From the NCBI GenBank assembly GCA_031284225.1, contig JAITAH010000008.1, forward strand, positions 1 through 21,092: a DNA stretch of 21,092 nt. The letters are read 5' to 3'. This document shows positions 441 to 17,349 of this stretch, in pieces. The stretch is from Dysgonamonadaceae bacterium (lineage in GTDB: Bacteria; Bacteroidota; Bacteroidia; Bacteroidales; Azobacteroidaceae). Positions within the stretch are counted from its first letter, which is position 1. The number at the start of each line of letters is the position of its first letter. Below the pieces are notes generated by a model. That model was given only the letters and a program-made list of their open reading frames with translations, ran no database searches and was not told the origin of the DNA. The position numbers were made by a program, and so were the translations under genes.

Positions 441-469
441 AGTAGATGATTGGATATTAATGGTGGACA
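441..469 (-). promoter_or_regulatory. Weak inverted copy of the putative HTCS operator
   Basis: Read on the minus strand, this stretch matches the 29-bp repeat found at 4672-4700 and 5962-5990 at about 18-19 of 29 positions. It keeps TTGGAT and GTGGACA-type blocks at the same 13-bp spacing. It ends 58 nt before the -7 box of the HTCS promoter. It could mediate autoregulation of the HTCS gene. This is weaker than the other two copies and inferred by eye. Confidence 0.4.
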
Positions 470-504
470 AAAAACACAATTCGAGGAAAAGAGCGGATTT
501 CCAG

Positions 505-555: not shown

Positions 556-3500
556 ATGTCAAAACAGCTCCTTTGTCTGCCGTTTATAGGGTTGTGCTTG
601 TGGATACAAACAAGCGCCGTTCATGCTCAAGGAACATTTATCGACCGCTATAACATTACCTATATCACTATGGACAACGGGTTATTGCACAATTTTGTGG
701 ACAATCTTTACCGCGACAAAAGAGGATTTCTCTGGATCGCTACCGGCGGAGGCGGCCTTTCGCGTTACGACGGCTATGAATTTATACAGTATAATACAAC
801 AACTAATCCGGTCAAACTCAAAAGTAATTTTATTTATGGAACCGTCGAAGATAAATTTAACCGTTTATGGATCGTATCTGAAGGCGGTATCGATATTCTG
901 TCGCTGGCTTCGCTGCAATTAACGTTCCCTCACGACCGGACGGGGTTGTTTAACCGGTTAACCGGTTGTTCGGCAATAGGCGTGATTAGCGATAGCCAGG
1001 GATGTATCTGGTGCTATTGCGGAGATACTTTGTATAAAATCCGCTTCGATAAAAAAGGGGATATCGACGAAATTTACAGGCTGCCTTCCGTTTCGCTCAA
1101 TATTCCGGTAATCGCTCTGGACGATATGGATGAAGACGGCAATATTTGGGCGGGATTGGAAAATACTGTTTGTAAACTGTACGAAGGCGAGAATGGACAA
1201 CTGATAGCCAGTCCCATCATTCCGAGTCTGGTTTTGGAACCGGGCAGTATCATTTCTTCTTTTCAGTTGAAAGAGAATGAAGTATGGATTGGAACCGACC
1301 GGGGACTTATCCGCTACAATAAAAACAGCGAACAAGTGAAACACTACCATTACGAACGAAACCGGATGCGATGCCTTTCCCAAAATCACGTAACCGATTT
1401 GGCGATTACAAACGACAAACAACTACTTGTCAGCACTTTGAGAGGAATAAATGTTTACAATGCCATGACCGACGATTTTGAACTGATTACGCTCAATAAT
1501 GCTTCGCAGAAAAACAGTCTGAATTCCAATTTTGTTAATTGCCTGTTAGTGGACGGCAACCGGATATGGGTAGGTACCGAAACCGGAGGCCTTAACAAGA
1601 TGATACCGGGTAAATTATCGGTGCGCAACTACATCCACAGCAACGACAATCCCGCGAGTTTGTCCGACAATCCGGTTAACGCCGTATATGAAGATGAGAA
1701 AGGGTATTTGTGGGTAGGCACGGTGGAAGGCGGATTAAACCGGAAAGAACCGGACAGCGACCGTTTCTCGCATTATACGGCCGAATCGGTTTCCGCTTTG
1801 AGCCACAATTCCGTAAGCGCCATCATCGCCGACCGGCTGGAGCGCTTATGGGTAGGCACTTGGGGCGAGGGTATCAGTATTTTAGATATCAATCATCCGG
1901 AACGCCGGGCGATTCAATACATTTCGTCGCAGAACCATCCGAATTTTCCGGTCAATTTTGTCGGCTCCCTTTGCTACGATACCTTGAATAATGGAATGTG
2001 GATTGGTTGCAATCCGGGAATTTTCTTTTACGATCTGTCCGCCGAACGGTTAATCATGCCCTTTGACAGCGCTATTGCGGAAAATATCTACGGCGTTATC
2101 GGTTCTGTAATCGACCGCGAAAATCGGTTGTGGATGGGCTGTATGAATGGAATGTATGTTATCGACTTACATTCTCGTTCCGACCAGGGTTTTTCATATC
2201 GTTATTTTCCTTACAAATTAGACCGGCCGGATTCGCACATGATTGAAAAAATCACTTGTTTTTGCCTTTCGGACAATGGTACGCTCTGGCTGGGCAGTAA
2301 CGGATACGGCATTTATCAATTCGTTCCGGATGAGAAAAATTTTGGCCGTTTTATTGCTTATACAACCGAACAGGGATTGATCAACAACAATATCAAAGGA
2401 ATATTGGACGACCGGAAAGGTTATCTGTGGATTAGTACCAACAATGGTATTTCCCGTTTCGACCCGTCGAACAATCGTTTTACCAATTACACCACAGAAG
2501 ACGGACTGGCAAGCAATCAATTCTATTGGAATGCGTATTGCCGCTCGCAGACAGGCGGACTGTACTTCGGCGGACTGAACGGATTGACCGTTATCGATCC
2601 CGGTCGCAACCCGATGCAGCATACGGCCTATAAAGTCGCGCTTACCAAATTGCGAGTCGCTTATAAAGAGATTATTCCGGGAAATCGTTACATCCATTCG
2701 GATATATCTATGACCGATATTTTGCGCTTGCACGAACGCGACAAATCGTTTTCCCTGGAATTTTCGGCCTTGAATTACGAACCGCAAATATCGGCCGTTT
2801 ACAGTTATCGCCTGGTGGGCTTCGACGACGATTGGGTGGACGTTCCCGGCAGTCGCCGTTTTGCTTCCTACACCAATTTATCGGCTGGAAAATACGTTTT
2901 TCAAGTAAAATATATTCCGGAAGGACTGGACGCACAGGAAGTTCCGGTAACAGAATTAACAATTGTCGTACAACCTTATTTTTACAAAACCACGCTGTTC
3001 ATTTTAGCCATTATCTTCTTGCTCGTATGCGGCGCCGTTTATTGGTACAAACGCCGCATTTCCGTCCTCAAAAAACAGCACGTAGCAATGGAGAAAAAAA
3101 TCGAAGAACTGACTATCGACAAATTATCTTTTTTCACCAATATCACGCATGAATTTCGAACGCCGATTACATTGATTATCGGCCCCATCGAGCGAGCATT
3201 AAAATTAAGCACCAATCCGAAAGTCATCGAACAGTTGCATTTTGTAGAACGAAATTCCAAATACTTGCTGTCGTTGGTCAACCAATTAATGGACTTTCGA
3301 AAAGTGGAATCCGGCAAATTGGAAATCGTAAAAGTGAAAGACGATTTTCTGAAATTTCTCGACGCTATCGTCTTTCCTTTCGAAGCGTTCGCCGGAAACC
3401 GCAACATCCAAATCCGCAAATATTACCGGCTGAGTTCCCCCGAATTCTTTTTCGACCAGGACGCCATGCAAAAGGTGATTACCAATTTACTGTTCAATGC

Positions 3501-4668
3501 CGTTAAATTTACTCCCGACGGAGGAAGCGTAAGCATTTACGTTACCTCCTTCTTCGATAAGGAAGTCCAAAAAGACAAACTGTTCGTTAGCGTCAAAGAT
3601 ACCGGAACCGGAATTGCCGAAGAAGATATCGACAAGATATTCAATCGTTTTTACCAATCGAAAAATCATGTCAAATTTCCGGTTTACGGACAGAGCGGCA
3701 CAGGCATCGGGCTTTATCTTTCCAAACGGCTTGTCCAATTGCACGGCGGAAATATTGCCGCCCGAAACAACCGGAAAGCCGGAGCTACATTCTACCTCGC
3801 GTTGCCGGTTTCGACCGAAGAAGAAATGCCGGAAGCAGATAAAAACACGAATTCTCTGACCAACCCTCTTTCGGAAGACGCTCCGATCCGGTTTTCGCTC
3901 GGAAAGCAAACCATCCTCATCGTCGAAGACAACAAAGATATGCGCGATTACATCCAATCGATCCTTTCCGACAACTACAACACGCTGGAAGCGGAAAATG
4001 GAGAAAACGCACTATCTATCCTGTCTGAATCGCATGTCGATTTTATTATCAGCGACTGGATGATGCCGGTCATGGACGGATTGGAACTTTCGCGGCGGGT
4101 AAAAGAGAATTTTTCCATTTCGCACATCCCGTTTTTGATGCTTACCGCCAAAACCGCTCAGGAAGCGCGTCTCGAAAGTTATCGAACCGGTGTGGACGAA
4201 TACCTTTCCAAACCCTTCAGCGAAGAATTATTGCTCGCCCGAATTACCAACATTCTGGAAAACCGCAAACGATACCAGCAACAATTTGCTCTCAACATGA
4301 ATGTCGAAACTTTGCATATCGACGAAGAATCGAGCGATAAAAAGTTTATTAATAAAGCTTTGGAAGTTATCAAAGCAAATTATAAAAATTCTTATTACGA
4401 ATCCATTGATTTTATTGAAGCCATGGGCGTCAGTAAAAGTCTGCTCAATAAAAAGATGCAACACCTTACCGGCCAATCGATCGGTCAGTTTATCCGTAAC
4501 TATCGTTTGAATATAGCCTACGAACTTATTGAGAAAAACCGGATTACTAAAAATATGAATATTTCCGAAATCGCTTATGAAGTAGGTTTTAACGATCCCA
4601 AGTATTTTACACGTTGTTTTACCCGGCGATTCAATATTACGCCAAGCAGTTTATTGGAAGGAAACTAA
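556..4668 (+). CDS. Hybrid two-component system sensor/response regulator (HTCS), PUL regulator
   Basis: A one-protein signalling system of 1370 residues, a normal length for Bacteroidetes HTCS. A signal peptide (about 1-24, ending VHAQ) precedes a periplasmic sensor of many Reg_prop propeller repeats (about 25-730, e.g. GYLWVGTVEGGLNR and GYLWISTNNGISRFD). Then come a Y_Y_Y domain (about 735-805), one membrane helix (about 812-834), and a HisKA domain with phospho-accepting His865 in THEFRTP. The HATPase domain has an N box at 977-985, DTGTGI at 1015-1020 and GTGIGLYL at 1048-1055. The receiver has Glu1124/Asp1125, phospho-acceptor Asp1167 and Lys1219. An AraC-type HTH forms the C-terminus (about 1285-1370). 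All key catalytic residues are present. It probably binds an oligosaccharide in the periplasm and activates the downstream genes. The ATG at 556 is chosen because it gives a proper signal peptide. Confidence 0.97.
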   Translation: MSKQLLCLPFIGLCLWIQTSAVHAQGTFIDRYNITYITMDNGLLHNFVDNLYRDKRGFLWIATGGGGLSRYDGYEFIQYNTTTNPVKLKSNFIYGTVEDKFNRLWIVSEGGIDILSLASLQLTFPHDRTGLFNRLTGCSAIGVISDSQGCIWCYCGDTLYKIRFDKKGDIDEIYRLPSVSLNIPVIALDDMDEDGNIWAGLENTVCKLYEGENGQLIASPIIPSLVLEPGSIISSFQLKENEVWIGTDRGLIRYNKNSEQVKHYHYERNRMRCLSQNHVTDLAITNDKQLLVSTLRGINVYNAMTDDFELITLNNASQKNSLNSNFVNCLLVDGNRIWVGTETGGLNKMIPGKLSVRNYIHSNDNPASLSDNPVNAVYEDEKGYLWVGTVEGGLNRKEPDSDRFSHYTAESVSALSHNSVSAIIADRLERLWVGTWGEGISILDINHPERRAIQYISSQNHPNFPVNFVGSLCYDTLNNGMWIGCNPGIFFYDLSAERLIMPFDSAIAENIYGVIGSVIDRENRLWMGCMNGMYVIDLHSRSDQGFSYRYFPYKLDRPDSHMIEKITCFCLSDNGTLWLGSNGYGIYQFVPDEKNFGRFIAYTTEQGLINNNIKGILDDRKGYLWISTNNGISRFDPSNNRFTNYTTEDGLASNQFYWNAYCRSQTGGLYFGGLNGLTVIDPGRNPMQHTAYKVALTKLRVAYKEIIPGNRYIHSDISMTDILRLHERDKSFSLEFSALNYEPQISAVYSYRLVGFDDDWVDVPGSRRFASYTNLSAGKYVFQVKYIPEGLDAQEVPVTELTIVVQPYFYKTTLFILAIIFLLVCGAVYWYKRRISVLKKQHVAMEKKIEELTIDKLSFFTNITHEFRTPITLIIGPIERALKLSTNPKVIEQLHFVERNSKYLLSLVNQLMDFRKVESGKLEIVKVKDDFLKFLDAIVFPFEAFAGNRNIQIRKYYRLSSPEFFFDQDAMQKVITNLLFNAVKFTPDGGSVSIYVTSFFDKEVQKDKLFVSVKDTGTGIAEEDIDKIFNRFYQSKNHVKFPVYGQSGTGIGLYLSKRLVQLHGGNIAARNNRKAGATFYLALPVSTEEEMPEADKNTNSLTNPLSEDAPIRFSLGKQTILIVEDNKDMRDYIQSILSDNYNTLEAENGENALSILSESHVDFIISDWMMPVMDGLELSRRVKENFSISHIPFLMLTAKTAQEARLESYRTGVDEYLSKPFSEELLLARITNILENRKRYQQQFALNMNVETLHIDEESSDKKFINKALEVIKANYKNSYYESIDFIEAMGVSKSLLNKKMQHLTGQSIGQFIRNYRLNIAYELIEKNRITKNMNISEIAYEVGFNDPKYFTRCFTRRFNITPSSLLEGN

Positions 4669-4671
4669 ATC

Positions 4672-4700
4672 TATCCACTATCTTAATCCAATTGTCCGCC
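4672..4700 (+). promoter_or_regulatory. Putative HTCS operator, copy 1
   Basis: A 29-bp sequence that starts three bases after the HTCS stop codon and recurs at 5962-5990 with 25 of 29 identical bases. Shared blocks are TATCCACTAT, TAATCCA and TTGTCC. TCCA cores occur at offsets 3, 16 and 24, so the outer two are 21 bp apart, about two helical turns. It ends 20 nt before the -7-like TTACTTTG. Such spacing suits an AraC-type activator site that replaces a weak -33 element. Confidence 0.65.
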
Positions 4701-4720
4701 TTGTTTAACCTATTCCTCGC

Positions 4721-4728
4721 TTACTTTG
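4721..4728 (+). promoter_or_regulatory. -7 element of the first LamG gene
   Basis: TTACTTTG differs from TAnnTTTG at one base. It lies 20 nt after operator copy 1 and 31 nt before the ATG at 4760. No good -33 TTTG is seen at the right distance, which is consistent with activator dependence. Confidence 0.45.
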
Positions 4729-4759
4729 CAATTATATTAATTTTTAATTTCGGTATATC

Positions 4760-5767
4760 ATGAAAAGAATTTTTACTATCCTTTTTTTTCTGGGCGTAGC
4801 GCTGTCTAATGCAAACGCCCAAACATTGCTTTATTCCAACGATTTCGAACAAGGCGTTAACGACGCCGCTATTATCGGAAACGGAGTAATTGAAGACAGC
4901 CAACATTTGTCGTTTGGCAAAGTGTTTCACAATGCCGCCGGAGGGCAGGCCATTCGCGCCAATTATTTGCAATTGCCCGCTACGATTTTCGCCGATTTGC
5001 AAACGGCGGCTACTAATGCCGTAACCATTTCGTTCTGGGTAAATAAAGGAACGGCAGTCGATTATTTCTTTACGCCGCTTTTTTCCGCCTATGGCGCAGC
5101 GCCGGCGAATGGAACCAACGCATGGCCAATGATGATACTTCAAAGCCGCGGAATCGTGCAGGTAAATAACGCCGGCTGGTGCGATTTCACCGACGCCCAG
5201 AATGTAACCGGCGTAAATACGGTATCGACCGTATGGTTGGACGATGAACTCTGGCATTTTTATTCCGCCGTTTTCACGCCCAATAATGTAAAAGTATATA
5301 TCGACGGTAGGGTGATGAACGAATGGAACCTGACCGGCCTTGAAGCCGGCGGTTCGACAAGCGGTTTGTTTACCAACGGTTCGGCATTGACTTATATCTG
5401 TTTGGGAGGAAATCAGGCTTGGGATTGGCCAGACCCCGATCCGGCTTACCTGTTCGACAAATTACGGATTCATGCCGATGCGCTGACAACAGAACAGATT
5501 GAAGCATTGATTGCAGCCGACAATTCCACAGCTATCCCCAACATTTCGTTGGAAAACATTCGCATTGCCTACGATGCGTCCGCCCAATTGATTTCCGTCA
5601 AAGGATTGAATGGCGGAGAAAAGGTGGAATTAATCAGTATTTTGGGACAAAAAACAAGTATTTCCCATCCGTCGGCAATTCCCACCGGAAATTTAAGTCG
5701 GGGCGTTTACATTGTAAGAATAAGTAAAGGCAACGAATGGAAAACGCAAAAATTACTGCTGAGATAA
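4760..5767 (+). CDS. Secreted LamG (concanavalin A-like) protein with T9SS sorting tail
   Basis: A 335-residue exported protein. A type I signal peptide (1-20, cleavage after NANA) is followed by a LamG/laminin-G-like jelly-roll domain (about 25-250). The last 75 residues (261-335) look like a type IX secretion type A tail: a small beta domain with ILGQK and GVYIVRIS, ending in KLLLR. The jelly roll is clearly paralogous to the second LamG domain of the next gene, sharing GWCDFTDAQN, YICLGGNQAW and DPDP. No enzyme motif is seen, so a carbohydrate-binding role on the cell surface or in the medium is inferred from the PUL context. It is preceded by operator copy 1 and followed by a hairpin terminator, so it is probably its own transcription unit. 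The substrate cannot be told from the sequence. Confidence 0.85.
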   Translation: MKRIFTILFFLGVALSNANAQTLLYSNDFEQGVNDAAIIGNGVIEDSQHLSFGKVFHNAAGGQAIRANYLQLPATIFADLQTAATNAVTISFWVNKGTAVDYFFTPLFSAYGAAPANGTNAWPMMILQSRGIVQVNNAGWCDFTDAQNVTGVNTVSTVWLDDELWHFYSAVFTPNNVKVYIDGRVMNEWNLTGLEAGGSTSGLFTNGSALTYICLGGNQAWDWPDPDPAYLFDKLRIHADALTTEQIEALIAADNSTAIPNISLENIRIAYDASAQLISVKGLNGGEKVELISILGQKTSISHPSAIPTGNLSRGVYIVRISKGNEWKTQKLLLR

Positions 5768-5773
5768 AATCAC

Positions 5774-6001
5774 TTAATCCGATAGTAAATAGTCGATTTT
5801 CGCAAGCTCAAATTGCGAGGGCGAAGCCCGAAGCAATCCAGTGATTGACAAATATTCCGGGCGCTTCGGTTTAGAAGAATGCTTGCCCAAGTCTATGCCG
5901 AATACTTGGGCAAGTTTTTTCAACGCTTGACTGCGAGCAGTTGACTCAAGTATTTTCATTTTATCCACTATTCTAATCCATTTGTCCACCACCATACCCA
6001 T
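5774..6001 (-). CDS. Doubtful small ORF (75 aa, or 61 aa from an internal Met)
   Basis: An open frame between the two LamG genes on the opposite strand. From Met15 (5959) it reads MKILESTARSQALKKLAQVF onward and ends in FELAKIDYLLSD. I do not recognise it. The composition looks protein-like. However, the first 14 codons lie over operator copy 2, and an 11-bp hairpin with a T run lies inside it. It may be chance, a decayed fragment or a small intergenic element. Confidence 0.2.
   Translation of the reverse strand: MGMVVDKWIRIVDKMKILESTARSQALKKLAQVFGIDLGKHSSKPKRPEYLSITGLLRASPSQFELAKIDYLLSD
5882..5920 (+). terminator. Intrinsic terminator after the first LamG gene
   Basis: A perfect 11-bp stem, CTTGCCCAAGT (5882-5892) with ACTTGGGCAAG (5904-5914), an 11-nt loop, and then six T (5915-5920). 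It lies 115 nt after the stop at 5767 and before operator copy 2, so it separates the two PUL transcription units. Confidence 0.7.
5962..5990 (+). promoter_or_regulatory. Putative HTCS operator, copy 2
   Basis: Second copy of the 29-bp sequence at 4672-4700, in the same orientation relative to its gene. Its last base is 21 nt before an exact -7 box, against 20 nt for copy 1. This conserved position, despite unrelated flanking DNA, argues for function. It would drive the main operon starting at 6051. Confidence 0.65.
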
Positions 6002-6011
6002 ATTCTTTTTT

Positions 6012-6019
6012 TAAGTTTG
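6012..6019 (+). promoter_or_regulatory. -7 element of the main PUL operon
   Basis: TAAGTTTG matches TAnnTTTG exactly. It lies 31 nt before the ATG at 6051, the same distance as at the first LamG gene. A TTTG at the normal -33 spacing is absent. The operator copy occupies that position. Confidence 0.55.
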
Positions 6020-6050
6020 TAGCGTAAAAATACTTTAAATTTAATAAATC

Positions 6051-7526
6051 ATGAGAAATTTTTTAACATTTGTTTTAATGTTGCCCTTCCTCTTTTCTGC
6101 CTGCCAAAAGTGGGGAGAATGGGATGATCCCGCCGGCAATCAGAAAAATCCGGTACCGCCGGACGCTTCCGTCAAAGTTATTGCCCATTTTCCGTTTGAT
6201 ACGGATTTAAGTGCAATAGATATCGATATAAGCGGAGAAACTACGATTTTGACCGACGGAACGGAACCGGAAATTGTAAACGATCCCTTCCGAGGCGAGG
6301 TATTGCATCAAAAAGGAAGCTATACCCGTTTCAAAAACCCTATGCAAGGTCTTTATGTGGCTCAAGGCGTTTCCGTAAGTTTTTGGACAAAAATGCCTGA
6401 GATAGATCTGCGCGGAGCGTTATTTTCATTTAAAAACGAAGAAACGACGAGCGCGCTGTTTTTTACCGGAAATGCCTGGCTCAACTACCAAGGCGCAACG
6501 GATGCATTTGAGATTAATAATCCTAACGCTACGGCAACAGACGCTTTACTTGCCAACCAGTGGCATTTTATAGCGGTTACGCTCACTCATGACGGTTACC
6601 AGATCTATGTGGACGGAGAAAAACGATATGAAAACACGGCCGGCGACTTCGATTATTCCAATATGGTCGATTTGATAACTACTTCGCCCTATTTCTATTT
6701 GGGATACGGATCGCCGGCAGAAACCCAAGAAGTCTATTTTGACGAGGTAAAGATCTATAAAAATAAAATTTCATCGTCAGAGGCACAACCGGTTGTAACG
6801 CTTCCCGAACCCATATATCTACATACTTTCGACGTGGCCAATGTATCTACTATTGTGGGAGGAGGCAGTTTCGTTCCTGTTACGGAGCAAGAATTTGGAG
6901 TCGTATTCCAAAATGCAACCGGAGGCATGCGCGAAAATTACCTGCTGTTGCCCGAAACCGTACTGTCTCATTCCGTCGAAACCAAAGCGTTAACGGTGGG
7001 CGTATGGGTCAATGCTTCCAATGCAGGCGCATCTTCTGTTTATATGTGGTCGCCTTTGTTCACTGCCTACGGGGCGGCTCCCGTCAATAAAGAAAACACC
7101 TGGCCGATGCTGGCTTTGCAATACCGCGGCGTTGTACAGGTAAATTGCGCCGGATGGTGCGACTTTACGGATGCACAGAATATAAAAGGAGTCAACACAC
7201 TCTACCATACGGCAAACGACTGGCTGGTTGACCATCATTGGCATTACTACACGGCTACTTTTACCGAAACCACTGCAAAAGTTTTCTTCGATGGCGTAGC
7301 GGTCAACGAATGGCAAGTCAGCGGTAGCGGCGCAGGTTCGGAAGTCAAAGGATTGTTCAGCAACGGAGCCGATCTGAAATACATCTGTTTGGGCGGCAAT
7401 CAAGCCTGGAGCTGGAGCGATCCCGATCCCGGATTTATGTTTGACGATATTGCTATCTATAATGTGGAATTGAGCGCAGAGCAAATCGCCATGATCATTG
7501 CTGAGAAATACGGCTCCAATAAATAA
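6051..7526 (+). CDS. Surface lipoprotein with two LamG domains, probable glycan-binding protein
   Basis: A 491-residue lipoprotein. The signal peptide ends in lipobox FSAC with Cys18, followed by QKWGEWDD, whose acidic residues fit surface export. There are two concanavalin A-like LamG domains: about 42-245 (with VSVSFWTKM and IYVDGEKRYE) and about 252-490. The second is paralogous to the upstream secreted LamG protein, sharing GWCDFTDAQN, YICLGGNQAW and DPDP. It is the first gene of the main operon and precedes SusC by 27 nt. That is the place usually held by a SusE/SusF-type or other surface glycan-binding protein, so it probably binds the target polysaccharide next to the SusCD complex. 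No catalytic signature is seen. Binding specificity is inferred only from context. Confidence 0.85.
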   Translation: MRNFLTFVLMLPFLFSACQKWGEWDDPAGNQKNPVPPDASVKVIAHFPFDTDLSAIDIDISGETTILTDGTEPEIVNDPFRGEVLHQKGSYTRFKNPMQGLYVAQGVSVSFWTKMPEIDLRGALFSFKNEETTSALFFTGNAWLNYQGATDAFEINNPNATATDALLANQWHFIAVTLTHDGYQIYVDGEKRYENTAGDFDYSNMVDLITTSPYFYLGYGSPAETQEVYFDEVKIYKNKISSSEAQPVVTLPEPIYLHTFDVANVSTIVGGGSFVPVTEQEFGVVFQNATGGMRENYLLLPETVLSHSVETKALTVGVWVNASNAGASSVYMWSPLFTAYGAAPVNKENTWPMLALQYRGVVQVNCAGWCDFTDAQNIKGVNTLYHTANDWLVDHHWHYYTATFTETTAKVFFDGVAVNEWQVSGSGAGSEVKGLFSNGADLKYICLGGNQAWSWSDPDPGFMFDDIAIYNVELSAEQIAMIIAEKYGSNK

Positions 7527-7553: not shown

Positions 7554-10500
7554 ATGAAACATATCGTTTTAATCCTGTTACTTTTTTGTACAATTACCGG
7601 GGTGTTTGCGCAAAACAAAATGGTATCCGGCGTGATAAAAGATTCGCAGGGAGAAGCCATGATTGGCGTAAGCGTATCGGAAAAAGGCACAGGAAACGGC
7701 GCCGTTTCCGATGTGAACGGCGCTTACCAACTGAATGTACGGGCAGGAGCCATACTTCAGTTCAATTACGTAGGTTATGTAACCGTCGAAATTACGGTAG
7801 GTTCTGCAAACGTTTATTCCGTTACCATGATGGAAAATACGCAATTGGAAGAAATTGTAGTCGTGGGATACGGTCAACAAAAGAAAGAATCGGTAGTGGG
7901 CGCTATATCGCAAATCAACAATATGGAATTGTTGAAATCGCCCGCAGCCAATATTTCTCAAGCCATCGCCGGTAAACTTCCGGGGGTGATTACTTCGCAA
8001 ACTTCCGGTGCGCCCGGTAGCGACGATGTAAGCATTTACATCCGCGGACGAGCTTCTTTTGCCGGAGACGGTCAACCGCTGATTCTGGTGGACGGCGTCG
8101 AACGCCCTTTCTCGCAAATCGCTCCCGACGATATAGAAACCATCTCGGTACTGAAAGACGCTTCGGCAACAGCCGTTTATGGTGTTCGCGGCGCGAATGG
8201 CGTACTGTTAATTACCACCAAGCGCGGCGTCAACCAAAAACCGACCGTCAGTCTGACAGCCAACTTTCAGGTACAATCGCCCACTCGTCAGGATAATTAT
8301 CTGGACGCCTATCAATCGGTCATCCTGTTGGAAGAAGCCCTGAAAAACGACGGTTTGCCTTCCCAATTTTCGGCGGCAGATTTGGATATGTACCAGAAAT
8401 CGTCGGCCGGACTTTTATCCGGAACCGAATCCATGCGGTATCCGAATGTGGACTGGTACGATTATGTACTGAATGAAATCGCGCCGGCGCAACGTTACAA
8501 TATAAATATTCAGGGCGGCACCCAGCGAATGCGGTATTTTGCTTCGGCAGAATATTATAATCAGGCCGGTTTGTTCAAGAATTTCAGCGCCGATCAATAC
8601 GGCAACAGTTCCAATTCCTCGTATCAACGCTATGCGTTCCGCGCCAATTTGGATTTCCTGGTAACGAAAGATTTAACGGCTTCTATTAATTTCGGAACCC
8701 GGTTTGAAGAACGACAAGGGCCGAATACCAACGATTACAGTTCCGGATTCAGCGAAGTGTATTACGAACTGAACCATACGCCCGGCTGGCTATTTCCCGT
8801 CGCTTACGAAATCGGAAGCGGAGCGGACAAACAAACGCTTTACGGCGGAAATTCGCAGAATCAGAACAATATTGTCAGCCGGTTGGCCAAAGGCGGATTT
8901 TACCGGCAAACCAACACGATCAACGAAACCAATTTCATTGTTAATTACAACATGGACTGGTTGACGCAAGGTTTATCCGCCAAAGCAATGCTTTCGTTCG
9001 ATTACGATTCGTGGTATCGCCGGCTCTTTACCGCCGATTTCGCGACTTACGAATTATTATCATACGACAATGGCGTTTATAATTTTTCTAAATACAATAC
9101 CGACACGGAATTAGCTTATTCCGGAAACAATCAAACCACCACCATGAAGGTGTATATGGAATACGCTTTGAATTATGCGCGCCAATTCGGATTGCACGAT
9201 GTATCCGGTCTGTTGCTCTACAATCAAAACGATTACCGATACCAGGCCGACTTGGCGAAACGCTACCAAGGCTTGGTGGGACGTATCACTTATGGTTATG
9301 ATAATCGCTACCTGGCGGAAGTCAATTTCGGTTACAACGGCTCGGAAAACTTTATGAAAGGTCGGCGCTTCGGGTTCTTCCCTTCTTTTTCCTTAGGTTG
9401 GCGATTGAATAACGAATCGTTCATGGAAACAACGCAGGATTGGCTGGATAATCTGAAACTGCGCGTATCCTACGGCGAAGTGGGTAACGACGAATACCGC
9501 GTCAACGGCGCATTGCAACGCTTTCTCTATATTCCCGTCTGGACACAATTGGGAACAGCATACGTTTTCGGCAACGGTGGAGCGCAAGGCGGTATTTATG
9601 AAAGCCAGTATCCCAATTATTTCGTAACCTGGGAACGCGCGAAAAAATACAATGCCGGTATCGAATTCGGGTTGTTCCATAACTTATTATTCGGAAGTGT
9701 GGATTTGTTTACGGAAAACCGGAACGATATCCTGACGCAACGACTTTCCTCCCCGCAGTGGGTAGGCGTAAATATTGCCGCCGCTAATTTGGGAAAAACC
9801 AAAAACAGCGGGTTTGAAATCGAACTTTCCCACCGCCATCACCTTGTTCACGGACTCAATTACTCGATTAAAGCGAACTTTACACATGCAAATAACCGGA
9901 TTATCTCCATGGATGAGCCGGACGCAAAAACCGCTTATCGAAAACAGGAAGGACGCCCTATCAGTCAGTATTTCGGATTAGTGAGCCAAGGGTTTATTAC
10001 TTCCTCCGATTTGGAAAATCCGGATTTCCCTGTATCTTCTTTTGGAGACGTCAAAGTGGGCGATTTGAAATACAAGGACATGAACCACGACGGCTTTATT
10101 GACGAACGCGACATTACTTTCATCGGATACAGCAATATTCCTGAAAACAGCTATTCGGTTACCTTGGGATTGGATTGGAAAGGACTTGCTTTCAGCGTCA
10201 TGTTTAACGGCGTCGATCACGTATCGCGCTATTACGACGCCGAAGCCATGTACGCGTTCGTCAATGGCGGGAAAGTCAAGGAACTGCATCTGCAACGATG
10301 GAATCCCCAACTGTCCGAGAGCGAGAATCTGGCAAAAGCGCAATACCCGCTTTTACACTACGACCAATACGGCGCTCACAACCAACGGGAAAATTCGTTT
10401 TTCCTGCAAAACGGCGCTTTTATCCGGTTAAAAAACATAGAATTGAGTTATACGATTCCTCGCCGGTTCACGAAAAACTGGGCAAATGAATTACGTTTCT

Positions 10501-10625
10501 ATGTAAATGCCAATAATTTGGTTACCTGGGATCATTTAGACGGATTGACAGATCCCGAAAGCAATGGTTCTAATACATACCCGATTATGAAAGCAGTGAA
10601 TTTCGGAGTTAATGTTAAATTCTAA
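7554..10625 (+). CDS. SusC/RagA-family TonB-dependent outer membrane transporter (first pair)
   Basis: Outer membrane importer of oligosaccharides powered by TonB, 1023 residues, a normal length. A signal peptide (1-19, ending VFA) is followed by a carboxypeptidase D regulatory-like domain (about 24-100), then the family signature EEIVVVGYGQQKKES (about residue 99). The plug (about 113-226) contains LKDASATAVYGVRGANGVLL and TTKRG. The beta barrel ends in NVKF with a terminal Phe, as expected for barrel assembly. SusD follows after 11 nt, and the pair should form a lidded import channel. It belongs to the operon driven from operator copy 2. The substrate is inferred from the GH43 enzyme in the same operon. 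Confidence 0.96.
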   Translation: MKHIVLILLLFCTITGVFAQNKMVSGVIKDSQGEAMIGVSVSEKGTGNGAVSDVNGAYQLNVRAGAILQFNYVGYVTVEITVGSANVYSVTMMENTQLEEIVVVGYGQQKKESVVGAISQINNMELLKSPAANISQAIAGKLPGVITSQTSGAPGSDDVSIYIRGRASFAGDGQPLILVDGVERPFSQIAPDDIETISVLKDASATAVYGVRGANGVLLITTKRGVNQKPTVSLTANFQVQSPTRQDNYLDAYQSVILLEEALKNDGLPSQFSAADLDMYQKSSAGLLSGTESMRYPNVDWYDYVLNEIAPAQRYNINIQGGTQRMRYFASAEYYNQAGLFKNFSADQYGNSSNSSYQRYAFRANLDFLVTKDLTASINFGTRFEERQGPNTNDYSSGFSEVYYELNHTPGWLFPVAYEIGSGADKQTLYGGNSQNQNNIVSRLAKGGFYRQTNTINETNFIVNYNMDWLTQGLSAKAMLSFDYDSWYRRLFTADFATYELLSYDNGVYNFSKYNTDTELAYSGNNQTTTMKVYMEYALNYARQFGLHDVSGLLLYNQNDYRYQADLAKRYQGLVGRITYGYDNRYLAEVNFGYNGSENFMKGRRFGFFPSFSLGWRLNNESFMETTQDWLDNLKLRVSYGEVGNDEYRVNGALQRFLYIPVWTQLGTAYVFGNGGAQGGIYESQYPNYFVTWERAKKYNAGIEFGLFHNLLFGSVDLFTENRNDILTQRLSSPQWVGVNIAAANLGKTKNSGFEIELSHRHHLVHGLNYSIKANFTHANNRIISMDEPDAKTAYRKQEGRPISQYFGLVSQGFITSSDLENPDFPVSSFGDVKVGDLKYKDMNHDGFIDERDITFIGYSNIPENSYSVTLGLDWKGLAFSVMFNGVDHVSRYYDAEAMYAFVNGGKVKELHLQRWNPQLSESENLAKAQYPLLHYDQYGAHNQRENSFFLQNGAFIRLKNIELSYTIPRRFTKNWANELRFYVNANNLVTWDHLDGLTDPESNGSNTYPIMKAVNFGVNVKF

Positions 10626-10636
10626 TATATGATATC

Positions 10637-12367
10637 ATGAAGAAATCAATCTTATATATGCTTTTCTGTTCGTTTGTCGCAGCGCTCGCTTTTTCTTCCT
10701 GTGAAGATATGTTCGGCGATTTTCTGGATAAACAACCCAGCAACGAATTGACGGAAAAAGAAACATTTTCCTTGTGGACAAATGCATCCAAATTCCATTA
10801 CGATACCTATAATTTTCTGCGTAACGGCGCCGGACGAATCAACGACTCGTGGATGGACGCTGCCACCGACTTGGCGGAAACCAGCTACTCGCAGTGCGGA
10901 ACACGATACAGTTTCAACGTGGGCAACTATTACGCCAGCGCCGGCGCTTCGGAATTAACGGATACTTGGGAACATTATTACCGAGGCGTCCGGAAATGCA
11001 ACATGCTGTTAGCTCATATCGACGACGTACCGAAAGCGGCCGACGATACGCCGGAAATCTACGAGATGAACAAAACAAATTTCAAGTCGGAAGCTCGTTT
11101 CCTGCGTGCCTGGTTTTATTGGGAATTATTCCTGCGCTACGGTACGGTTCCGGTCATCACCGATGTGCTGGATCCCGACGGAGACTTATTGACGGGATAC
11201 ACCGAACGTCCAAGTAATGAAACATTCGTTAATTTCCTCCTCAGAGAATTAACCGAATGTGAAAGCGGATTAATGGATAAACCCACCGAAAACGAACGTA
11301 TCGGACGCATCTGTAAACCGGTGGCCTCCGCTTTACGGTCAAGAATCATCCTTTATATGGCCAGTCCGAGATATCAGGTAAAAACCTGGCAGGAAGCAGC
11401 CGATGCAGCGCTTTCGTTTATAGATATTTACGGCAGTCAATACGGTTTATATCGGGGAACGGAAAGCGTTGTTCTCTTACCCGCGCATGCCGGCAATAAC
11501 GAAGTGATCTTCTGGCGCAACGACACTCAAATCGGATGGTCGGATATTTACAACGATACGCCGGTAGGCGAAGGCGGACGGGGCGGCTTATGTCCTTCCC
11601 AAAATTTAGTAGATATGTACGATATGGCAAACGGTCAATCGCCCTTTACGGAATACGACGATACCGGCGCGCCGGTTTACAATGGAATATCCGCGCCTTC
11701 CGTGTCTTCCTCCGGCGGATACAACGACAACGACCCTTATACCGGACGCGACCCACGGTTTTATAAAACCGTACTTTATCATCAGTCCGTTTGGAACAAC
11801 AGCGTCATCAATGTCATCAAAGGCGGAAAAGACAATCCTGTGGGAAACGCCAACGCTACGCCTACCGGCTATTATGTGCGGAAATACATTCCGGAAAATA
11901 TCTTGTACAACAATCACAGCAATACCAGTTTCCGAAACTGGATTTTCATCCGATACGCCGAAATTCTGCTGAATTATGCAGAAGCCATGAACGAAGTAAA
12001 AGGGCCTTGTCCAGAAGCATTTAATGCTTTGCAGGAAATCCGTGAACGTGCCGGAATAACCGCCAACGTAGCCGGTCGTGCCGATTTGCAAACCCAGGAA
12101 GCTTTACGCAAATTCATCCGCAAAGAACGCACCGTCGAACTGGCTTTTGAAGACCATCGCGCTTGGGACGTTCGCCGCTGGAACGTAGCCGTTGAAGCGC
12201 TCTCCCGCCCTATCTACGGCATGGAAGTAGCTGCCGGCACAGGAGGAAACCCGGTCTATACCCGCAAAATTGCTCAAAACAGAATATTCATGGAAAAAAT
12301 GTACCTCTATCCGATTCCCGAAACGGAAGAATGGAAAACAGGAATTGCTAATAATCCGGATTGGTAA
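10637..12367 (+). CDS. SusD/RagB-family surface glycan-binding lipoprotein (first pair)
   Basis: A 576-residue outer membrane lipoprotein that caps the preceding SusC channel and binds the glycan. The lipobox is FSSC with Cys22, followed by acidic EDMFGD. Family motifs include DKQPSNELTEKE near the N-terminus, RAWFYWELFLRYGTVPVI (about 156-173), IRYAEILLNYAEAMNE, and near the C-terminus KERTVELAFEDHRAWDVRRW (about 496-515). The tetratricopeptide-like core is unbroken. Spacing is 11 nt from SusC and 20 nt to the second SusC, with no terminator in either gap, so it is co-transcribed with them. Confidence 0.95.
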   Translation: MKKSILYMLFCSFVAALAFSSCEDMFGDFLDKQPSNELTEKETFSLWTNASKFHYDTYNFLRNGAGRINDSWMDAATDLAETSYSQCGTRYSFNVGNYYASAGASELTDTWEHYYRGVRKCNMLLAHIDDVPKAADDTPEIYEMNKTNFKSEARFLRAWFYWELFLRYGTVPVITDVLDPDGDLLTGYTERPSNETFVNFLLRELTECESGLMDKPTENERIGRICKPVASALRSRIILYMASPRYQVKTWQEAADAALSFIDIYGSQYGLYRGTESVVLLPAHAGNNEVIFWRNDTQIGWSDIYNDTPVGEGGRGGLCPSQNLVDMYDMANGQSPFTEYDDTGAPVYNGISAPSVSSSGGYNDNDPYTGRDPRFYKTVLYHQSVWNNSVINVIKGGKDNPVGNANATPTGYYVRKYIPENILYNNHSNTSFRNWIFIRYAEILLNYAEAMNEVKGPCPEAFNALQEIRERAGITANVAGRADLQTQEALRKFIRKERTVELAFEDHRAWDVRRWNVAVEALSRPIYGMEVAAGTGGNPVYTRKIAQNRIFMEKMYLYPIPETEEWKTGIANNPDW

Positions 12368-12387: not shown

Positions 12388-15300
12388 ATGTGGAAAATCA
12401 AATATACATTCATTTGGGTCGCGGCGCTGGCAATACAATCGCTATATGCACAATCGCCAAAAACGTTAGACGGCCGCATTGTTGATGAAAACGGTCATCC
12501 GGTAGCAGGAGCTATCGTCAATGTCGCGGAAGCCAGCCGGATCACTTTGTCCGGCAAGGACGGCTATTTTCATCTGAAAAACGTAAAACCGGGCGACGAA
12601 ATCATCGTAACCCGTCAAGGTTATTTCCCTGCTTCGGTACCGGCGGATTTTTCGGACAATTTCAATGTGGAATTGAAAGTCGATAACGACGAATACAAAC
12701 ACGCCACGCCGCTTCCTTTCAGCCGAAAAGAAAAGAAATTCGTTACGGAAGCAACATCCGTCGTTTCCGGCGAAGAACTGGAAAAACATCCGGTTACTGT
12801 ATTGCAAAACGCCTTTACTGCCACGCTTACAGGTGTAGAAACGCTTGAAATGCAGTCCGAACCCGGATGGTCGGAATCGGCGATTTACATTCGGGGCATA
12901 CACACGATGAACACCGGCGCCCGCGCTCCTCTCATTATTGTGGACGATATGGAGCGGGATTTATCTTTTCTCGACGCCTATTCCATCGAATCGGTTACCA
13001 TTCTGAAAGACGCCGCCTCTACGGCGATTTACGGAATGCGCGGAGCCAACGGCGTAATCCTCGTAACCACTAAACGCGGAAGCGTAGGAAAAACCAAAAT
13101 CAATTTCACACAGGAATTCGGTTATCAAACTACCGCCGGCATACCGGAATCGCAAAATTCCTACAACTACGCGCTAACCCGCAATCAGGCGTTGTATCTC
13201 GATGGTCTGCAACCCGAATTTTCGGACGAAGATATCCAACATTACTACGAAGTCGCTAACGGCACGCTCGACCCTTCGTTGAAATACAAATATTTCAACA
13301 CCAACTGGCATGATGTGATGTTACGCGATTTAGCGCCCCAACATCGTACCAACCTATCGGTCAGCGGAGGAAACGATCGCGCTAAATATTTTGTAACCTT
13401 TTCCTATCTGCGGCAAGAAGGTTTATACGATACGCAATGGACGGAATGGAACGATGCTTATTCGACGCAACAAGTATTAGACCGTTTCAATCTTCGTTCC
13501 AATATCGACCTGAATATCAACAGATATCTCAACGTATCCATGGATTTGGGCGGACGCATCGACAATATTTCCCAACCGGGAATCGACGTCTGGAACCTCT
13601 TTACCTGGGGCGCGGGCGAAAACAAACCGATTTTTCCCGTATTCTGTCCCAACGGTAGTTTCTTTATGCCCACCGAAAGCGACAGTAAGAACGGAGCGGC
13701 GCAAATTGCCGGACGCGGAATAGAGAATAATCGCCGTCGTAATCTTTATACAAACGTTACGGCGAGCGGCGATTTAAGCGCTCTGACCCAAGGGCTGAAA
13801 GCCAAGTTGACGGTAGGTTTCGATTCTTATGAAACATTCCAGTCCGTGCAACGGGCGGATATCGACGTATATTCCTACAACTACGGCGCAACCGTCAACG
13901 ATCCTTCGGAATATACCTATACCCGTATGCGCACAGGTATTGCTTTGCCGAATCCAAGCACAACTCCCCGGGATTATTACTACAATATCAACATGCGCGC
14001 CGGATTGGATTACGGCCGCACGTTCGGGAAACATGCAATCAATGCACAGGCTTTTATCCGCACTTACAAAAACGTGGTTCGCGGACAAAATTCTTCCAAT
14101 CGTTACCTGTCCTACAATGCGATGGCGACTTACGTCTATAATAATCGCTATATCCTGTCGGGAAATCTCTCCTACATGGGTTGCGATAATTTTGCTCCCG
14201 ACGAACGTTTCGCCGTATTTCCGGGTATTTCTGCCGGCTGGGCGCTTTCCGAAGAATCCTGGATGAAAAACGCCGGATTCAATCTGTTGAAGCTACGCAC
14301 TTCCTACGGCCGGGCGGGACAAGCTAATATCGGAGTCGGCCGCTACCCATTCCAGGGAACTTACATGGAAGGAAACGGATATAACTTCGGAACCTCGCAA
14401 ACGTCTTGGCAAGGCGCTTACGAATCGGCTACCGGAAACAAAAACATCCGATGGGAAATTTCCGATATGGCAAACATCGGATTAGACTGGGACGTCGCCC
14501 ATAAAAAGTTCTATGGAACAGTGGATGTTTTCAAAGAATGGCGTTCTAATATCCTCGTTACACGTTCCACTATTCCCGAAGGTCTTTTTGGCGCAAGCGT
14601 TCCGCAAGATTCGTATGGAAAGGCCGAAACGAAAGGTATTGAAACCACTTTGGGACATGCTTATAAAATAGGAAACGTCAATTACTTCCTCGAAGGTCTG
14701 TTAACGTATAATATCAATAAAATTACGGAAATGGACGAGGTGGCTCCCGATTATGACTATCAGGCGCTTACAGGACAACGCATTGGCAGTATTCTGACCC
14801 TGAATTGGGTACAGTGGGCTTCCGACCCGGATTTAATCCCCTCATCTCATCAGGATGCTATCGACCATCCCGAAAAATACCCGTGGCACGCGGCAGGAAA
14901 GTACAAATTGGGAAATGCGGTGTTTGAAGATAAAAATAACGACCGGATCATCGACAGTTACGATAAATATCATATCGGCTTCCCTTCGGCTTCCGATAAC
15001 CGTATTCCGGAAATTGTTTCAAGCATAAAGGCCGGTTTTGAATTTCACGGGTTTGACGCAAGGGCAATCCTTACGGCCTATCTGAACCGCACGGTGGAAA
15101 CGCGCGAAAATATGGACGCCGGTTTTGGCTGGGGCGGTACTTCAACGCATGCCGTAACAAATACTTGGGGTTATTACACCGACGACCCGACCGACTCGCG
15201 CAATATCAATGCCAAATATCCGCGCCTGTCCACCTCTTTCAGCGATATCGACCGGAATTATCCCTACAACCAATCGACCATCTGGCTGGTAAACGGCGAT

Positions 15301-15516
15301 TTCCTGTCATTACGCAATATCGAAGTCGGCTATTCGTTACCGGAAAACCTGATTTCCAAACTTTTTATGACGAAATGCCGCATCTATTTCAGCGGATACA
15401 ATTTACATGTATGGAGTCATTTACCGAAAGGGTTTGACCCGGAAAATCCCACTAATTATATTTGGGCTTATCCGAAAACAAAATCGTTTTCCATTGGTAT
15501 AAATATCGGATTTTAA
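12388..15516 (+). CDS. SusC/RagA-family TonB-dependent outer membrane transporter (second pair)
   Basis: 1042 residues. The signal peptide (1-21, ending LYA) is followed by a carboxypeptidase D regulatory-like domain (about 27-100) and a plug (about 120-230) with IYIRGIHTMNTGARAPLIIV, LKDAASTAIYGMRGANGV and TTKRG. The long barrel ends in GINIGF. The usual VVVGYG signature between the regulatory domain and the plug is missing. LPFSRKEKKFVTEATSVV stands there instead. It is only distantly similar to the first SusC, so it is not a recent duplicate and may import a different product or chain length. SusD follows after 13 nt. Confidence 0.95.
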   Translation: MWKIKYTFIWVAALAIQSLYAQSPKTLDGRIVDENGHPVAGAIVNVAEASRITLSGKDGYFHLKNVKPGDEIIVTRQGYFPASVPADFSDNFNVELKVDNDEYKHATPLPFSRKEKKFVTEATSVVSGEELEKHPVTVLQNAFTATLTGVETLEMQSEPGWSESAIYIRGIHTMNTGARAPLIIVDDMERDLSFLDAYSIESVTILKDAASTAIYGMRGANGVILVTTKRGSVGKTKINFTQEFGYQTTAGIPESQNSYNYALTRNQALYLDGLQPEFSDEDIQHYYEVANGTLDPSLKYKYFNTNWHDVMLRDLAPQHRTNLSVSGGNDRAKYFVTFSYLRQEGLYDTQWTEWNDAYSTQQVLDRFNLRSNIDLNINRYLNVSMDLGGRIDNISQPGIDVWNLFTWGAGENKPIFPVFCPNGSFFMPTESDSKNGAAQIAGRGIENNRRRNLYTNVTASGDLSALTQGLKAKLTVGFDSYETFQSVQRADIDVYSYNYGATVNDPSEYTYTRMRTGIALPNPSTTPRDYYYNINMRAGLDYGRTFGKHAINAQAFIRTYKNVVRGQNSSNRYLSYNAMATYVYNNRYILSGNLSYMGCDNFAPDERFAVFPGISAGWALSEESWMKNAGFNLLKLRTSYGRAGQANIGVGRYPFQGTYMEGNGYNFGTSQTSWQGAYESATGNKNIRWEISDMANIGLDWDVAHKKFYGTVDVFKEWRSNILVTRSTIPEGLFGASVPQDSYGKAETKGIETTLGHAYKIGNVNYFLEGLLTYNINKITEMDEVAPDYDYQALTGQRIGSILTLNWVQWASDPDLIPSSHQDAIDHPEKYPWHAAGKYKLGNAVFEDKNNDRIIDSYDKYHIGFPSASDNRIPEIVSSIKAGFEFHGFDARAILTAYLNRTVETRENMDAGFGWGGTSTHAVTNTWGYYTDDPTDSRNINAKYPRLSTSFSDIDRNYPYNQSTIWLVNGDFLSLRNIEVGYSLPENLISKLFMTKCRIYFSGYNLHVWSHLPKGFDPENPTNYIWAYPKTKSFSIGINIGF

Positions 15517-15529
15517 AACAATTACGAAG

Positions 15530-17349
15530 ATGAAACACAATATAAACAAACAAGGTCATGGATTTAGTACATTAATTGCAATAATCCTGCTCATGGCCGT
15601 TCAGACAGGATGCAGCGATTATCTGGACAAGGAATACGATGCGTCTCTTTCCGAAGAAAAAGTGTTCGGCAATCAAACGCTGACCAGCGAATTTCTAAGC
15701 AATATCTACACGAATTTACCGGACGGAATTGCCGGCTATGCAGACGACCAGTTTTTAGGCGCTTCGCGCGATTGCATGACCGATAACGCCACTTCGTTCT
15801 GGGGATTACATTATTTCAACAAAATCAATCTGGACGCTTATACGGCAGCCGATCATCCGTTGCTCGGTTTCTGGAATACCGACTTTTCCGGTATCCGAAA
15901 ATGCAATACTTTTCTGAAAAATGCCAAGGCAAGTATTGTCGGCAATGCTACGCTCGCCGGCGACGATAATCATCTGTATGATCGCTATTGTGCGGAAGCG
16001 CTTTTGCTTCGGGCTATTTTCCATTTCGATCTGGTGTGCTGGTTCGGTAATGTTCCGATTTTGGGCGAAGATGAAAACGGCGAACCGATTATATTAGACA
16101 TGAACAATCAGGCGCAAATGAACATGTCGCGGCAACCGGCCGCCGAAGCGTTGCAATGGGTAGCCGACCAATGCGATGCGGTAAAAGATTTGTTGCCTTT
16201 CCGCTACGGCAACGAAGACATTAATTGGGGACGAGTGAACGGAGCTACAGCTTATGCACTGAAATCAAGGGCGTTACTTTATCGAGCTTCGGCTTTGAAC
16301 AATCCGGAAAATGATCGATCGTACTGGACGGCCGCCGCTCAGGCAGCCCTCGATTTTATCGCCAAAAATCAAACGCAAAGCAAACCTTACAGTTTGTATG
16401 CGACTATCAGAAATGTTTCTACGAAAATCCGACTTACAACAATGAAATCATTTTGTCGCGCTCGCTCTGGAACACCAACCGGATTGATTTGCAATTGTTG
16501 CCTCCCGGATTTACCGGTTCCGTATCGGGCGCCGGACGCACCAATCCGACGCAAAACTTTGTGGACTGCTTCGAAATGAGCAACGGTAAACGCATTGACG
16601 AAGCCGGTTCGGGCTACAATCCGGCCGATCCCTACACGAATCGCGACCCGCGCCTGGAAGCAACCTTATTTCATCACGGTTCAATATGGGGACGCGCCGA
16701 TCAAGGCGAACAACGCCGGGTGGACATTCATTTCAATTCGGCAACCGATAAAGGCGCCGACTATCGCGAATCTATGGGTGGAACTTATACCGGCTATTAC
16801 CTGAAAAAATTCGTTAATCCGGATTTAATTCTTAAAGCGCCTCAGAATTTCCCACATTCCTGGATCATCTTCCGCTATGCCGAAATCCTGTTGAATGCAG
16901 CGGAAGCCATCAACGAAACCGACGGGCCGGAAACAGCTTACTCTTATGTGAACCAGGTGAGAAACCGCGTAGGTATGCCGACTTATACCAATCTGTCGCA
17001 GGAACAATTTCGGCAACGCATCCGGAACGAACGCCGGGTGGAACTGTCATTTGAAGACCATCGCTTTTTTGATTTACGCCGCTGGCGGCTCTATGACGGA
17101 GTAACGGCTCCAAATGAATTGTCGAAACCCCGCTACGAACAGTTGTTGAATATGTATGGCGTGCAGATAACGGTTTCAGGCAATCAACCGGTCTATACCT
17201 TTACCGGCGCTCCGGGGAATCAGGGAAACGATATGGATCTCCGTGTGTTCAACAATCCGAAAAATTATTATTTTCCGATCCCCGACAGCGAAGTCAAACG
17301 CGCCCCAAATCTGGGACAGAATCCGGGCTGGGAAGTAAATGCTAATTAG
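15530..17349 (+). pseudogene. SusD/RagB-family lipoprotein (second pair), broken by a one-base deletion
   Basis: Two overlapping frames together make one SusD. The first runs 15530-16399 as normal SusD (290 residues): signal peptide with lipobox QTGC (Cys28), then SDYLDKEYD and LLLRAIFHFDLVCWFGNVPI. The second runs 16402-17349 (315 residues) with DYQKCFYENPTYNNEIILSR, FRYAEILLNAAEAINE and RNERRVELSFEDHRFFDLRR. The frame is lost at about 16400-16402, where SLYA should be followed by DYQ but one base is missing. Unrepaired, translation goes out of frame to a stop at 16577-16579 (349 residues). Adding one base gives about 606 residues, normal for the family. Both halves look well conserved, so this is either a very recent mutation or a sequencing or assembly error. 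No good restart is seen for the second half. Confidence 0.88.

Follow-up and report, generated by a model that had tools for sequence, protein, structure and literature searches.

The HTCS–LamG locus and its repeated element

The window analysed here is a stretch of 21,092 nucleotides (positions 1 to 21,092 of the forward strand of contig JAITAH010000008.1, assembly GCA_031284225.1) from a Dysgonamonadaceae bacterium. It contains a gene for a hybrid two-component system (HTCS) regulator, two downstream genes for LamG-type proteins and, in front of each LamG gene, a copy of a short element that is the subject of this work and that an original prediction had read as a binding site of the neighbouring HTCS. 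The HTCS gene (556–4668, forward strand) encodes, in one protein and with all domains above the Pfam cut-offs, a periplasmic Reg_prop propeller followed by Y_Y_Y, HisKA, HATPase_c, response regulator and AraC-type helix-turn-helix (HTH) domains, as is typical of the HTCS class. Its receiver and HTH part (residues 1118–1369) matches PDB entry 12aw, a solved chain named hybrid two-component system protein that is useful for modelling the output domain. LamG1 (4760–5767, forward strand), a Laminin_G_3 protein, is the first predicted target, and LamG2 (6051–7526, forward strand) is the first gene of a second predicted target operon, where it takes the position of BT0365.

The copies at 4672–4700 and 5962–5990 agree by direct reading at 25 of 29 bases, and the same pair was recovered independently as repeat family D17 (86% over 29 nt), while the DNA flanking them is unrelated. 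With up to three mismatches allowed, the shared pattern is found twice in the window and in none of 100 shuffles, a test that is weak alone as the pattern was derived from the two copies themselves. Copy 1 begins three nucleotides after the HTCS stop codon (4666–4668). The boxes TTACTTTG (4721–4728, the −7-like box of LamG1) and TAAGTTTG (6012–6019, the −7 box of the LamG2 operon), both on the forward strand, start 20 and 21 nt past copies 1 and 2, the former offset matching that of relatives, and each box is followed by 31 nt to the ATG (4760 and 6051). All these particulars agree with the original prediction. TCCA, TCCA and TCCG start at 4674, 4687 and 4695 in copy 1, in steps of 13 and 8 with the outer two 21 bp apart; copy 2 has TCCA at all three places.

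The extent of the element and the number of its copies required revision. The conserved unit spans 31 bp (4670–4700 and 5960–5990), longer than the 29 bp first noted, and a third, divergent site is present. Predicted operator 1 (4670–4700, forward strand), upstream of LamG1, has half-sites TCTATCCACT and ATTGTCCGCC in a 21-bp register. Predicted operator 2 (5960–5990, forward strand), with half-sites TTTATCCACT and TTTGTCCACC, lies upstream of LamG2-SusC-SusD-SusC-SusD-GH43 and has no mismatch to the cross-genome consensus. The third operator-like copy (441–471, reverse strand) lies upstream of the HTCS gene and combines a perfect TTTGTCCACC with a diverged second half-site (five mismatches in all).

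A conserved direct repeat with a 21-bp register

The element was followed through 77 loci from one contig scan and a 17-row alignment of the window's LamG1 with 16 of 131 relatives. With the window, these loci make up 78 sequences (1.09 Mb), in which 33 pairs of [AG]TCCAC lie 21 bp apart on the same strand, while no other distance between 5 and 60 bp has more than four such pairs; five Markov-shuffled controls gave 0–2 pairs at 21 bp. Because the pairs pile up at this one distance, the real unit is a direct repeat, with the 31-bp consensus TTTRTCCACY-N11-TTTGTCCACC and two half-sites 21 bp apart, the arrangement of the operator class proposed here.

SusC follows 28 of the LamG genes, and for 25 of these the available upstream sequence is 150 nt or longer. 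The repeat stands upstream of 16 of these 25 operons with up to three mismatches (15 with at most one), versus none of 25 equal-length control stretches taken 500 nt inside the same genes. The original prediction had named a lack of conservation at orthologous loci as an outcome that would refute it; the element proved to be conserved in the orthologous promoters instead. Among the remaining 48 LamG genes whose upstream stretch is long enough, five have the repeat when up to three mismatches are allowed. Looser regular expressions also match seemingly spurious places inside genes (L004, L005 on the minus strand and L035; L138 at 12264, L144 at 13842 and L147 at 5090).

The distance to the promoter is conserved along with the repeat. 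Of 56 distinct sites that have no more than one mismatch, 48 show a TAnnTTTG that starts 20 or 21 nt after the repeat and 8 do not, in a sample drawn from related genomes whose sites are non-independent. Read as a Bacteroidetes promoter, and given this position of the −7 box, the downstream half-site occupies the place of the −33 element. The two copies could in principle be a functionless remnant of the duplication that gave rise to LamG1 and LamG2, which are homologous (50% identity over 65%). The flanks of the copies are unrelated, yet 31 bp are conserved across families with a constant spacing to the −7 box, and the divergent site precedes another type of gene, mostly GH43, so that this explanation has next to no likelihood.

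Association with orthologous HTCS genes

At the whole-genome level, ten related genomes yielded ten matches to the 31-mer with one mismatch or none; these come from 6 of the genomes and all lie at this locus. With up to three mismatches there were 49 matches versus 33 for the reversed pattern. In the genus to which G001 belongs, 71 of 158 genomes contain the 31-mer at up to two mismatches, and these matches number 128 versus 44 for the reversed pattern, matches at two or three mismatches thus including background; perfect matches number 37, in 33 genomes. In 20 matched regions selected for carrying a site, an HTCS gene lies beside the site in 19 (all except L150; in L140 and L153 it is broken into two frames) and a LamG2 relative follows the site in 17 (not in L138, L139 or L144). 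A second, divergent site, as identified by regular expression, lies on the far side of the HTCS gene in 18 of the 20 (not in L149 or L150), mostly before a GH43 gene.

When the 112-residue HTH domain of the window's HTCS was used as a query in ten genomes, the best match was the HTCS adjoining the repeat in 7 of 10 (G164, G159, G011, G115, G119, G053 and G001; 71–79% identity), and lower-ranked matches reached at most 54% identity among the matches listed. An orthologous HTCS output domain is hence found with the repeat. No such repeat was seen by eye in the promoter areas of two HTCS paralogs with HTH identities of 54% and 44%. The window HTCS and that of G159 are 57% identical over 1425 aligned positions, and LamG2 is 49% identical to the LamG protein of G159.

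The third copy of the window belongs to the divergent type of site. Read from 471 to 441, it is identical at 28 of 31 positions to the site between the HTCS and GH43 genes of G006 and at 27 of 31 to that of G005, and these two intergenic sites have four mismatches each to the consensus and share an ATCTAC form. The sequence past the third copy diverges, with a TAATTTTG box starting at 15 nt and not at 20–21, and the table of open reading frames (ORFs) lists no divergent gene of at least 90 residues and no GH43 gene after it within the window. The third copy may be a remnant, or it may serve the promoter of the HTCS gene itself. A CT simple repeat (79–98) lies near the left end of the window, where a divergent GH43 gene would be expected.

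Correspondence with the published arabinan system

In B. thetaiotaomicron, motifs were predicted for 16 of 36 HTCSs, all of them direct repeats whose register averages 21 bp, and BT0366 was named HTCS_Ara-1 (arabinan) (PMC3878776). The same source describes BT0365-60 as two SusC/SusD pairs and an endo-arabinosidase under dual control by HTCS_Ara-1 and AraR. A BT0366 fragment made up of receiver and DNA-binding domains is reported to shift both the promoter of BT0365 and the region between BT0366 and BT0367 but to leave an araM promoter fragment unshifted (PMC5061871), and a chimeric HTCS with the BT0366 regulatory domains bound at the BT0366 locus in chromatin immunoprecipitation sequencing (ChIP-seq; PMC3404733). 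The accessible parts of PMC12125979 and PMC10994844 hold nothing on this motif.

An AraR oligonucleotide of the BT0365 promoter is printed in PMC4666351. A search for its 31-nt stretch covered 137 of the 158 genomes mentioned above; 119 were without a match and a further 18 gave one, in G159, where the repeat starts 3 nt after the stretch. Because this exact BT0365-promoter stretch occurs there, G159 is, judged by sequence, B. thetaiotaomicron or a close relative. By position, the two regions bound by BT0366 would be the two repeat-bearing places of G159.

The operon of the window has the composition of the HTCS_Ara-1 regulon, with a LamG-type gene, two SusC/SusD pairs and a GH43 gene. Its SusC-SusD-SusC-SusD order had at first suggested a possible xylan locus, which was dropped in favour of arabinan given the description of BT0365-60 and the arabinose genes of the relative G006. 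In G006, the divergent flank of the HTCS gene encodes GH43, an arabinofuranosidase-type protein, an AraR-type NrtR protein, a second arabinofuranosidase-type protein, an aldolase-family protein and L-arabinose isomerase, and this gene context lends support, by analogy, to arabinan or arabino-oligosaccharides as the putative inducer.

We propose that the element is very probably the operator of the adjoining HTCS, an ortholog of the arabinan sensor BT0366 (HTCS_Ara-1). The basis for this is the repeat itself, its register, its conservation, its spacing to the promoter and its co-occurrence with orthologous HTCS genes, whereas the ligand class and the DNA binding are taken by analogy from the published work on BT0366. 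The original reading of an HTCS binding site is thereby supported, the repeat being conserved before orthologous LamG-SusC operons, beside orthologous HTCS genes and with an unvarying offset to the −7 box.

An AraR-like dyad beside the probable operator

A different factor, such as AraR or the Crp-like global regulator BT4338, might bind the repeat, the adjacency of the HTCS gene being incidental. Both regulators are reported to act on the arabinan locus, and AraR-like dyads do adjoin many of the repeats. From our reading of the printed oligonucleotides, the AraR dyad would be of the type GTGTA-N5-TACAC. With up to two mismatches, it adjoins 21 of 50 distinct near-perfect sites, whereas 300 shuffles of the flanks gave 1.9 such cases on average and never more than 6; a separate count of related sites had it at 21 of 52. 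In 18 listed sites the dyad starts 16–26 bp before the repeat (upstream in Bacteroides-type loci); in the other three (L166 of G006, L078 of G005 and L020) it lies 62 bp after the first base of the repeat, over the start region. The AraR sites printed in PMC4666351 form a separate dyad beside the repeat, the Crp-type motif of PMC3878776 is a palindrome and not a direct repeat, and the repeat tracks the orthologous HTCS. We therefore judge binding of the repeat by another factor to be very improbable and retain the HTCS as its probable reader.

In the window, operator 2 has no dyad with up to two mismatches and only a degenerate form at 6019–6045. None was seen by eye at operator 1, a site below the cut-off of the dyad count. 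A dyad near the promoter, as expected under AraR (NrtR-family) co-regulation, was hence not found. These positions suggest that the AraR dyad may have moved relative to a fixed operator core between lineages and may have decayed in the window.

Half-site structure

The original prediction had listed TCCA cores spaced 13 and 8 bp and taken the outer two, 21 bp apart, as fitting an AraC-type dimer on direct repeats. The spacings hold, including the outer 21 bp, but the middle TCCA proved variable. Three contact sites, in a trimeric or two-dimer arrangement, would fit the TCCA, TCCA, TCCG and TCCA, TCCA, TCCA of the two window copies and the middle TCCA kept elsewhere. At the middle position, however, TCCA stands in no more than 7 of 50 distinct near-perfect sites, four of which come from the window, L001 (both sites) and L002 and the remaining three from L029, L115/L142 and L137/L160; 8 sites have TTCA there, and 24 further forms make up the remainder. 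The outer half-sites hardly vary, in part since the sites were chosen by them. The middle bases follow a trend (A/G, T, C/T, C at 69%, A/G/T) that recurs more weakly just ahead of the first half-site (C at 54%), as for one longer half-site used twice. A third contact site is accordingly hardly likely; more probably, the second half-site extends leftwards and its 5′ arm includes the middle TCCA, which would then be no separate core. The half-site of a repeat read twice by the HTCS would then be about 10–15 bp long, roughly ATYCR-TTTRTCCACC. The reading of about 15 bp fits the published HTCS half-site examples of 12–16 bp with spacers of 5–9 bp (PMC3878776).

Kinase-less regulators in Prevotella-type loci

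At 7 of the 16 repeat-bearing LamG-SusC loci, the regulator encoded directly before the repeat has no match to HisKA, HATPase_c or a receiver. These proteins of 962–1014 residues (L030 242–3286, L033 4084–7080, L034 4257–7145, L037 1834–4773, L040 3295–6234, L057 2882–5848 and L065 4096–7140) have Reg_prop, Y_Y_Y and AraC-type HTH domains, and a hydrophobic stretch of 19 residues follows Y_Y_Y in all seven. Six of the loci are from Prevotella or Prevotellaceae and L057 is from an uncultured bacterium; L030 and L065 share the same site. A tblastn search with the kinase-receiver part of the window HTCS found nothing in the seven loci and gave matches in L025, L059 and L045. Four of the seven were aligned with six full HTCSs; the short proteins lack window residues 843–873 and 893–1227 and keep the post-receiver linker, and the short stretch placed between these gaps is probably a misalignment. 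Of the 6049 relatives found for the L037 protein, the best 120 have, by precomputed Pfam lists, this domain set without kinase or receiver in every case, which, with relatives ranked by likeness to the short form, shows their number and not exclusiveness. According to PMC3878776, every HTCS identified in that study has a kinase and a receiver, and a thin literature search returned no recognised account of kinase-less regulators.

We somewhat favour the view that, in Prevotella-type relatives, a one-component regulator derived from the HTCS recognises the arabinan operator. It would consist of propeller, Y_Y_Y, membrane span and AraC-type HTH, the kinase and receiver (∼843–1227) having been cleanly lost, and the sugar signal would pass straight through the membrane to the DNA-binding domain without a phosphorelay. 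If true, these regulators would represent a natural experiment on whether the phosphorelay is needed for such sensing.

Probable transcription units of the window

The second operon continues on the forward strand, by domain matches, with SusC-like 1 (7554–10625), SusD-like 1 (10637–12367), SusC-like 2 (12388–15516), SusD-like 2 (15530–17349) and a GH43 gene with a GH43_C domain (17374–19062). SusD-like 2 comprises two overlapping reading frames (15530–16579 and 16453–17349) that each match one part of the SusD family, reflecting a frameshift or an assembly error. Intergenic gaps from LamG2 to GH43 are 11–27 nt by the ORF table. A terminator-like hairpin with a T run (5881–5921, forward strand; −19.4 kcal/mol, z −4.56) follows LamG1 and sits between LamG1 and operator 2; a simple terminator pattern scan with a loop limit of 8 nt skips it, its loop being 11 nt. 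The locus likely comprises two transcription units, LamG1 alone and LamG2 through GH43, and it is plausible that both are co-regulated by the HTCS. A gene for an AAA_14/DUF4143 ATPase (19344–20483, minus strand) adjoins the locus. The best named relatives of LamG1 come from Dysgonamonadaceae assemblies (78–80% identity), whose isolate names we take to point to termite guts.

Discussion

The arrangement of the locus suggests how the HTCS might act. An arabino-oligosaccharide would bind the periplasmic propeller, and a phosphorelay within the HTCS would then activate its AraC-type C-terminal domain. Two such domains would occupy the two half-sites, 21 bp or two helical turns apart and thus on one face of the DNA. 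As the downstream half-site stops 20–21 nt short of the −7 box, where a −33 element would lie, the bound HTCS would help RNA polymerase to start transcription in a class-II-like activation, and LamG1 and the LamG2-SusC-SusD-SusC-SusD-GH43 operon would be switched on together. We infer the dimer geometry, the class-II contact and the validity of the whole scheme in this organism.

Several points weigh against an operator of the arabinan HTCS. Binding of the HTCS to the window operators is a prediction from sequence, and operator 1 has three mismatches to the consensus as well as a −7 box, TTACTTTG, that is one base off TAnnTTTG. The identity of the repeat with the published HTCS_Ara-1 motif is a likely one, drawn from position and structure. 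ChIP-seq binding by the BT0366 domains was also reported near loci that go down on activation, so that activation is not the sole reported effect (PMC3404733). The HTCS genes of G006 and G005 (HTH identities of 94% and 82%) lie on other contigs than the LamG-side repeats, and the G007 assembly, in which the HTCS is missing, gives only a poor HTH match.

The repeat is furthermore absent, with up to three mismatches allowed, from 9 of the 25 LamG-SusC operons (L021, L022, L023, L024, L036, L039, L041, L062 and L073). The HTCSs of L021 and L022 match the window's HTH weakly, with much lower scores. The contig of L024 (B. cellulosilyticus) has a perfect repeat and the HTCS at another place, with a run of N behind them. 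In L073 (4419–4449), two copies of AAAATCCACC lie 21 bp apart, both half-sites being altered alike, as would be expected if the same protein domain reads them. Finally, the HTH domains of the seven kinase-less regulators are 41–52% identical to that of the window, no closer than those of the repeat-less paralogs. Because regulators in this range adjoin the repeat and like-scoring paralogs are without it, HTH similarity alone does not predict the operator, and with HTH domains of only 41–52% identity the kinase-less regulators are linked to the operator by their adjacency to it, by the orthology of the target genes and by a repeat and a promoter spacing that have stayed the same.

The principle of a direct-repeat HTCS operator is already published, and the window is a well-supported new example from a Dysgonamonadaceae-type bacterium with a duplicated LamG unit. 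TTTRTCCACY-N11-TTTGTCCACC provides a concrete candidate operator, at a fixed promoter distance, for the arabinan HTCS across Bacteroidales beyond Bacteroides, and would allow arabinan regulons to be called by sequence in uncultured bacteria.

The window shares with the BT0366 regulon the order of the HTCS gene and a downstream LamG-SusC-SusD-SusC-SusD-GH43 operon, as published for BT0365-60, and the placement of sites, with one type before the operon and a divergent type before the HTCS gene. It differs in its extra LamG1 unit with an operator of its own, in the missing divergent GH43 gene and in the AraR-like dyad not being recognisable at operator 2. Like the Bacteroides HTCS operators of Ravcheev et al. 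2013 (PMC3878776), those of the window are direct repeats in a 21-bp register, the mean of the published motifs, upstream of polysaccharide operons. The host differs, being a Dysgonamonadaceae-type bacterium and not a Bacteroides. The araI1-I2 site of E. coli AraC is alike in that two AraC-type HTH domains bind direct repeats 21 bp apart beside a promoter, whereas AraC itself is a soluble arabinose-binding protein and thus belongs to another sensor family. SusR is a propeller-type membrane regulator that works without a phosphorelay, an architecture shared by the kinase-less relatives described here and not by the HTCS of the window. However, SusR-like motifs have a 67- or 77-bp register (PMC3878776), whereas the kinase-less proteins have an AraC-type HTH and adjoin the 21-bp repeat.

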